64,000 nucleotides of DNA from Pelagibacteraceae bacterium AG-430-P08 (GTDB taxonomy: Bacteria; Pseudomonadota; Alphaproteobacteria; Pelagibacterales; Pelagibacteraceae). Location of the stretch: the NCBI GenBank assembly GCA_003212925.1, contig QCOL01000002.1, positions 1-64,000 of the forward strand, given 5' to 3'. Under the pieces are notes generated by a model that was given only the letters and a program-made list of their open reading frames with translations, was not told the origin of the DNA and searched no databases. Shown here in pieces: positions 48,029 through 49,389 of the stretch. A program made the position numbers and the translations under genes. Within the stretch, counting starts at the first letter, position 1; every line of letters starts with the position of its first letter.

Positions 48029-48057
48029 TTGACATAACGTATATAAAAAAATAAAAA
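48029..48057 (+). promoter_or_regulatory. Sigma70-like promoter for the 25-aa microprotein gene
   Basis: TTGACA (48029-48034), 17-bp spacer, TAAAAA (48052-48057). Confidence 0.5.
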
Positions 48058-48108
48058 TAAGTTAATTACGAATCATTTTGATTCGTTTAACAAAAAAGGG
48101 AGCTAAAG

Positions 48109-48186
48109 ATGCCTAAGAGAAGAAAAAAAGCAAAGAAGGCTAAGAAAAAAGCTAAGAAAAAAGCTAAAAAAAGAAGAAGAAGATAA
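48109..48186 (+). CDS. 25-aa Lys/Ala/Arg microprotein MPKRRKKAKKAKKKAKKKAKKRRRR (not in ORF track)
   Basis: SD-like aaaaaaGGGAG 5-10 nt upstream; own promoter-like signal and rho-independent terminator; only K, R, A plus initial MP. Confidence 0.75.
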   Translation: MPKRRKKAKKAKKKAKKKAKKRRRR

Positions 48187-48204
48187 TAACTTAGTATTCT
48201 TTAT

Positions 48205-48247
48205 AAAAAACGCTTCTCATAACTTTTTGTGTGAGAGGCGTTTTTTT
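48205..48247. terminator. Bidirectional intrinsic terminator between microprotein gene and carD
   Basis: AAAAAACGCTTCTCA-taactttttgtg-TGAGAGGCGTTTTTTT; one G-T wobble; A tract/T tract on both sides. Confidence 0.9.
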
Positions 48248-49106
48248 ATTCTTCAACTTGTTCCTCAACGTCTGAGATTGGTTCTTCAATTGGTAAATCG
48301 TTATTGTTTGAAGTTTTTGGAGTTTTATTTTCCTCCTTTATTTCTTTGTTAATATTTCTTTTTAAAGCTTTGTCTAATTTTTTTTGTGTGTCATCTTTTG
48401 ATAAATTCATAACTAATTGAAATTCTGAGATAACTCTTTCGTAAGCTTTTTCAAAAAGTTGTCTTTCACTATAAGACTGATCGATCATTACATCATCACC
48501 TTTATTTAAATCTCTTACAACTTCTGCAAGTTCATAGATTTTACCAGATGAAATTTTTGCTTCATATTCCTGTGCTCTCCTACTCCACATCGATCTTTTA
48601 ATTTTAGGTTTACTTTTAAGAATAGATATACTTTTGTTTACTTGATTAATTGTAGATAATGGACGTAAATGAGATTGTTTATTGACTGGTACCATTCCAT
48701 TTGCTTTATCTTTTTCAAATTTTATGATGTATGTTTCTACATCTATTCCACCAATATTAATTTTTTTGAATTCTGTAATTTGTCCTACCCCATGTTTTGG
48801 ATATACAACGTAGTCTTTTATTTTATATTCTCTTTTTTCTGTGCTTTGTTTTTTAACCTTTTTAATTTCAGGCTTTAATTCGTTATTTTTAGGTATTCTT
48901 AAATTTTCTGTCTTAGTCTCAATTTTTTTCTCATTTTTTTTTACTAATTTTTTTGAAGATTTTAAGGTTAATTTTGGAAGTTTTTTATTTTTTTTAATTT
49001 TTTTTGTCTTTGGTTTTTTTACTTTTATTACTTTTCTTACTTTTTTTGTTTTGGATTTTGTTTTAAAGGTTTTCTTTAAAATATTTTTCAAACTTATTTT
49101 GCTCAT
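48246..49106 (-). CDS. carD: CarD-family transcriptional regulator with Lys-rich N-terminal extension
   Basis: [46 protein letters not shown], plausible start MSKISLKN at 49106. Confidence 0.9.
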
Positions 49107-49389
49107 TTTTATATTTTTCATGATCCGAAGGTGGATCTTTTTTCTCACTTATATTGGGCCAGATTTCAGAGTATTGACTATTGATTTCTAACCACTTTTC
49201 GCTTCCAGGCTCCGTATCAGCTTTAATTGCATCTACTGGGCACTCTGGTTCACAAACGCCACAATCTATACACTCATCGGGTTTAATTACAAGCATATTT
49301 TTTCCTTCATAAAAACAATCCACAGGACAAACTTCAACACAATCCATTAATTTACATTTGATACACTTATCATTTACTATGTAAGTCAT
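49063..49389 (-). CDS. fdxA: Ferredoxin FdxA-type (3Fe-4S/4Fe-4S)
   Basis: [45 protein letters not shown]. Confidence 0.95.

Follow-up and report, generated by a model that had tools for sequence, protein, structure and literature searches.

Positions 48029 to 48247 of the 64,000-nucleotide stretch analyzed here (the window, as a whole) are best explained as a dedicated single-gene transcription unit, which encodes a 25-residue peptide and faces carD. When the sequence was re-read, the promoter, spacer, hairpin, Shine-Dalgarno (SD) sequence, ORF, and terminator all lay where a first-pass annotation had put them. The features are as follows.

48029–48034, + strand: −35 element TTGACA, from sequence; TTGAC(A) is kept in the leaders of all genera read.
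48052–48057, + strand: −10-like element TAAAAA, from sequence; weak by consensus, with a 17-nt spacer from the −35 element.
48068–48086, + strand: 5′-leader hairpin ACGAATC-ATTTT-GATTCGT near the 5′ end of the predicted mRNA, from sequence and folds.
48069–48075, − strand: TGATTCG (CGAATCA when read on +); a GANTC site for CcrM with the extension associated with GcrA, at a predicted position of about +5 to +11.
48079–48085, + strand: second TGATTCG, the other hairpin arm, present in the genus and altered or lost in several other genera.
48098–48102, + strand: SD sequence GGGAG, from sequence; GGGAGCTAAAG before the ATG is invariant in the genus.
48109–48186, + strand: ORF for the 25-aa peptide MPKRRKKAKKAKKKAKKKAKKRRRR, with ATG at 48109 and the stop TAA (48184–48186) included; from orthologs and pN/pS.
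About 48205–48246, both directions: intrinsic terminator AAAAACGCTTCTCA ... TGAGAGGCGTTTTT between the convergent genes, from sequence.
48246–49148, − strand: carD, the convergent neighbor, with RID and CarD_C domains (Pfam PF02559 and PF21095) and its stop at 48246–48248.

Transcription is predicted from the promoter spacing to start near 48064–48065, and comparison of leaders indicates that the A-rich −10 core is conserved within the genus. A GC-stem terminator is also found downstream of the gene in relatives when loci are compared. The window sequence holds no further same-strand gene between the 25-aa ORF and the terminator, which rules out a reading of the ORF as a leader peptide. Lys and Arg make up a fraction of 0.76 of the peptide, and among ORFs of 18 to 130 aa in the 64-kb window it is the only one with at least 50% Lys + Arg; in a complete 1.34-Mb relative (G012), the ortholog is the most basic of nine such ORFs. 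On the other side of the terminator, the SAR11 CarD protein carries an N-terminal Lys-rich extension of about 100 residues ahead of the RID domain, which varies among genera.

Because a low-complexity peptide is not reliably searchable, orthologs were located with carD as the anchor, which was matched in 81 of 101 genomes. The ORF was found beside carD, in convergent orientation, at all Pelagibacterales loci examined on contigs that extend far enough, and in all ten genera of the order examined; at the loci without it, the contig stops 37 to 155 nt from the carD stop. Tabulation of 120 same-genus loci, which are not all independent since they derive from two collections with some genomes in both, gave 40 distinct peptides of 21 to 35 aa, nearly all with an MPK[KR]RKKA- or MAKRRKKA-like start and an Arg/Lys end. 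Other genera of the same family encode forms of 21 to 58 aa (e.g., MAKKRKKAAKKKVAKKPAKRKVAKKKPAAKKRKPAAKKKAPAKKRKPAKKKTAKKRKR), and a second, sister family encodes forms of 40 to 99 aa that resemble histone H1 tails (MEELKVIFAKARKKAKKKAAPKKKRKAAKRKPAKKK...), nearly all of which start with ME[ED]LK[VI]IFA and continue into KKAKKKAAPKK-type repeats. Composition across the order is K 50 to 55%, A 19 to 25%, and R 9 to 17% (K 50%, A 25%, R 9%, and P 7% in the sister family), Pro-containing repeats occur in the sister family and g140, and the net charge per residue is +0.5 to +0.8 in all forms. The 25-mer thus represents the small extreme of a family of polycations with elastic length. In the sister family, carD and the peptide gene remain together and the far-side neighbor gene differs (locus L218). 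Conservation of the ORF, SD, and terminator in relatives, on which the first-pass annotation had let its proposal stand or fall, extends across the order. No similar gene lies downstream of carD in 30 loci of other Alphaproteobacteria. Near carD at one of these loci (L177 of G108, from position 752) there is a Lys/Ala-rich, H1-like ORF, which may be a CarD N-terminal extension or a separate gene.

Purifying selection was evident in the 25-aa length group, in which 38 loci comprise seven distinct DNA sequences and the peptide is identical save for Pro or Ala at position 2 (pN/pS = 0.05 over the seven ORF sequences); the remaining changes are synonymous. Groups of other lengths gave pN/pS values of 0.16 to 0.51, with K, R, A, and T interchanging, values whose reading is limited because equal length does not ensure homologous positions. 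The traits retained by selection are high charge, Lys–Ala spacing, and a basic, Arg-rich end, and the number of residues ranges from 21 to 99. There is at best slight avoidance of extended A-runs among Lys codons, with P = 0.05 for the longest A-run and AAG used for 5 of 13 Lys codons versus 12% in G012 (P = 0.015). The predicted transcript is short, about 180 nt, and has a structured 5′ end and a terminator, features that would suit a unit acting chiefly as a small RNA with an incidental or secondary ORF. However, the almost exclusively synonymous change in the 25-aa group, a frame kept through length changes from 21 to 99 codons, and the conserved SD and start codon make such an RNA a very improbable account of the unit.

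The leader hairpin owes its significance to conservation rather than rarity, since a GAATC..GATTC pair is expected 0.55 times per 64-kb window and is by itself no surprise; the hairpin CGAATCN2–8GATTCG occurs at one place in the organism's own genome. A stem formed in all 100 distinct leader windows folded, with each window exceeding its mononucleotide shuffles in stability (mean z −3.3). Stem sequences are [AG]CGAATC/GATTCGT within the genus, TCACTTAAA/TTTAAGTGA in g140, ATCACATA/TATGTGAT in g5, and GAATCAC/GTGATTC, GAATCAA/TTGATTC, or GAATCA/TGATTC in the sister family, and in g141/g142 a G·U pair stands in place of G–C. Two-sided changes were seen at pair 8 (C–G or A–T), pair 9 (T–A or A–T), and pair 12 (A–T or G–C), counted on individually folded leaders, which is a weaker test than formal covariation on a gapped alignment. 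Pairing is shifted inward in g5, g140, and one g139 leader, so that the first bases of CGAATCA are unpaired; in g140 and g5 these bases, CGA(A), are nonetheless unchanged, which argues for two overlapping constraints, one on the RNA stem and one on the sequence CGAATCA. The view of the hairpin as nothing but a DNA palindrome (operator) was set aside as incomplete, given the G·U pair of g141/g142 and the inward movement of the pairing, and the hairpin alone was rejected as an explanation of the invariant bases, since they are in part unpaired in the three kinds of shifted leader. Beyond the presence of the hairpin, which the first-pass annotation had right but took as plain architecture, the leader thus has a near-invariant CcrM/GcrA-type site and a stem with compensatory changes in other genera; that the hairpin is rebuilt between genera while CGAATCA stays nearly invariant is new. 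The hairpin probably stabilizes the mRNA or has a regulatory role. Predicted folds of the g5, g140, and sister-family leaders include an extra pairing of CTCC-type with GGAG-type sequence that could cover the ribosome-binding site. Apart from two tRNAs, no Rfam family matched the window at the gathering score, so the leader is unmatched, and PMC2704228 does not list the locus in its main table of SAR11 intergenic regions that may carry RNAs.

CGAATC is present in every readable leader, is followed by A in 151 of 152, and lies 38 to 42 nt (mode 40) after TTGAC(A) in all tabulated leaders but two, one of which is cut by a contig end and the other a wrong ORF pick. Its complement TGATTCG (more broadly, YGAKTCK) corresponds to the extended form of GANTC through which GcrA is proposed to activate transcription in Caulobacter, and Brevundimonas shows little preference for the extended motif (PMC7987155). 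A CcrM homolog has been reported in SAR11 (PMC3973325), and of 41 genomes 36 have GcrA and 35 have the CcrM RAMA domain, the organism's own genome included in both counts. As in CcrM/GcrA-controlled promoters, then, an extended motif is conserved at orthologous promoters of an organism with both regulators, with the caution that the site here comes after the predicted start, at about +5 to +11, and is reversed in orientation; in the genus, a second TGATTCG in the other orientation completes a palindrome.

Genome-wide motif counts, like the codon counts above, were made on the complete relative G012. There, GANTC is rarer than most comparable pentamers, and 6.2% of its copies are non-coding, the highest share of 24 compared. 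TGATTCG has 10 copies, of which six are non-coding in a genome that is 3.6% non-coding, and without the present locus the figure is five of nine (P about 9e-5 versus the GANTC average). GGATTCG is likewise enriched in non-coding DNA of G012 (7 of 13). The non-coding TGATTCG copies include ones upstream of genes that we take, from their protein sequences, to be recA and clpX. TGATTCG precedes clpX in 24 of 24 SAR11 genomes from both families and recA in 14 of 16 readable regions, the other two having TGAGTCG. TGATTCG is very probably functional in SAR11 promoters, its recurrence upstream of clpX and recA suggests a conserved GcrA/CcrM regulon, and the 25-aa peptide gene is a likely target of such control. 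Alternatively, instead of a CcrM/GcrA site, CGAATCA and the hairpin may be the target that the peptide, or some other RNA-binding protein, recognizes in autoregulation. Conservation of the stem as RNA, with compensatory changes and G·U pairs, is consistent with this alternative, as is the single genomic occurrence of the exact hairpin, typical of autoregulation through a single-gene element; however, these seven bases are the extended GcrA motif of the literature and are found again ahead of clpX and recA, where this hairpin is absent, and we consider autoregulation in place of CcrM/GcrA control a possible but doubtful explanation. The two kinds of control can coexist. From the presence of TGATTCG ahead of the peptide gene, clpX, and recA follows a specific and testable prediction, that an organism with very few regulators has a CcrM/GcrA program.

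At E values of 1 or below, family searches with the 25-, 35-, 85-, and 91-aa forms matched nothing in Pfam or NCBIfam, and no histone-like model there recognized even the long form; composition filters may hide low-complexity matches, and models of this sort deal badly with such sequence. In the absence of a curated profile match, the peptide was not filed as a member of the histone-H1-like proteins (Hc1/Hc2, linker histone), whose compositional character it shares, being Lys/Ala(/Pro)-rich, of low complexity, and variable in length through repeats. A solved-structure search with the 85-aa form gave ribosomal L29 at E 0.5, a chance match of composition. Papers on SAR11 H1-like or nucleoid proteins and on microproteins, in a search bounded short of subscription literature and SAR11 genome annotation, contained no description of the gene.

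A peptide of 25 residues that is 76% Lys + Arg leaves no room for a fold carrying a specific activity. The product would be disordered and would bind, neutralize, and condense DNA, and RNA too perhaps, thereby contributing to nucleoid packaging in very small cells. Elastic length and the H1-like repeats of the sister family fit a nucleic-acid-neutralizing, condensing polycation, and the likeness to a histone H1 tail proposed by the first-pass annotation gained strength from the sister-family ortholog, a protein of 40 to 99 aa built on AAPKKK/AKRKPAKKK. Transcription would proceed from a sigma70-type promoter, with the CcrM/GcrA site lying within the initial transcribed bases, and synthesis would probably follow the methylation state of newly replicated DNA. 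We infer translation, DNA binding and compaction, activation by GcrA, and control by the leader from sequence features, and we judge it somewhat probable that the unit encodes a minimal histone-H1-tail-like polycation that condenses DNA with cell-cycle timing.

By sequence, several targets are plausible, since a peptide so rich in Lys and Arg would be expected to attach to RNA and ribosomes besides DNA. DNA is the favored candidate because of the likeness to Hc2, the length range, and the promoter site shared with recA. Two other targets were weighed. The peptide could be a small ribosome-associated protein like eL41 (25 aa) or bTHX, seated as a basic peptide in an rRNA groove: its size and basicity are those of eL41, poly-Lys/Arg binds rRNA well, and lineage-specific small basic ribosomal proteins exist. 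Against a ribosomal role, lengths of 21 to 99 aa arising by repeat-like expansion are unlike the fixed length (about 25 aa in eL41) of proteins held in ribosomal pockets, no match was obtained to Pfam PF05162 (eL41), which a control eL41 sequence matched at 3.9e-12, and the family has, at another site, a 27-aa peptide of constant length that is a better candidate of ribosomal type; a ribosomal role is thus rated as unlikely. That second conserved basic microprotein, MGYPKKHRGRRKMGSKKRRARKKNKKK (G000:C4:2602-2682, corresponding to L302:1501-1584, and G012:C1:445857-445937), was found in 12 of 12 genomes of this family tested, at 81 to 100% identity, and in neither of two sister-family genomes tested; it has no Pfam match and looks more like a small ribosomal protein. 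The peptide at the carD locus could also act as a general or RNA-condensing polycation, in effect a polyamine made from a gene, whose partners would be RNA, polyphosphate, or membranes and which would have no particular tie to the chromosome. Such a role would accord with a sequence that is charge only and elastic in length, in which no feature singles out DNA, but the control region shares its site with clpX and recA, suggesting cell-cycle timing, and the long form resembles DNA-binding H1 tails; we hold this rather improbable as well.

Returning to the DNA-condensing polycation, a bolder version, advanced tentatively, is that the SAR11 order encodes its own minimal histone, fold-free, tail-only, and of as few as 21 residues. 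Its synthesis would share with recA and clpX a timing set by GcrA and by CcrM methylation that depends on replication, and a structured leader RNA would tune it. Were this so, few known proteins that package chromosomal DNA would be smaller. SAR11 cells are among the most abundant in the sea, with streamlined genomes and a nitrogen-scarce habitat. That a nitrogen-costly Lys/Arg-rich peptide is kept in every genus examined argues that it matters, and since its 25-aa gene falls below usual length cut-offs, it is possibly absent from SAR11 annotation and proteomics and from nucleoid models.

Among known systems, the SAR11 peptide is most readily compared to the bacterial H1-like proteins Hc2/HctB, Hc1, and Bordetella BpH1, with which it shares a Lys/Ala-rich composition (with Pro in the long form), a repeat-built sequence, elastic length, and the same proposed mechanism. 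Chlamydial Hc2 binds DNA and is between 165 and 237 aa long (PMC2848022). The SAR11 peptide differs from these proteins in being far shorter (21 to 99 aa) and tail only, in having its own conserved leader and promoter site, and in being limited, in the searches made, to Pelagibacterales at the carD locus. The C-terminal tail of eukaryotic linker histone H1 resembles it in composition and expected disorder, including the Lys, Ala, and Pro of the sister family (AAPKKK, AKRKPAKKK); however, the SAR11 peptide has no globular winged-helix domain and has Arg-rich ends, and the likeness is one of composition, with homology not demonstrable. Ribosomal eL41 is likewise 25 aa and extremely basic, whereas the SAR11 peptide lacks sequence match and fixed length, has Ala spacing, and contains no Trp, Met, or Leu in the manner of eL41. 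As in CcrM/GcrA-controlled promoters of Alphaproteobacteria, TGATTCG (YGAKTCK) stands next to a sigma70-type promoter and SAR11 has both regulators, but here the putative site lies in the first transcribed bases, inside an RNA hairpin. What we rate as new, relative to all of these, is an H1-like tail protein apparently cut to its minimum and provided with its own conserved control region.
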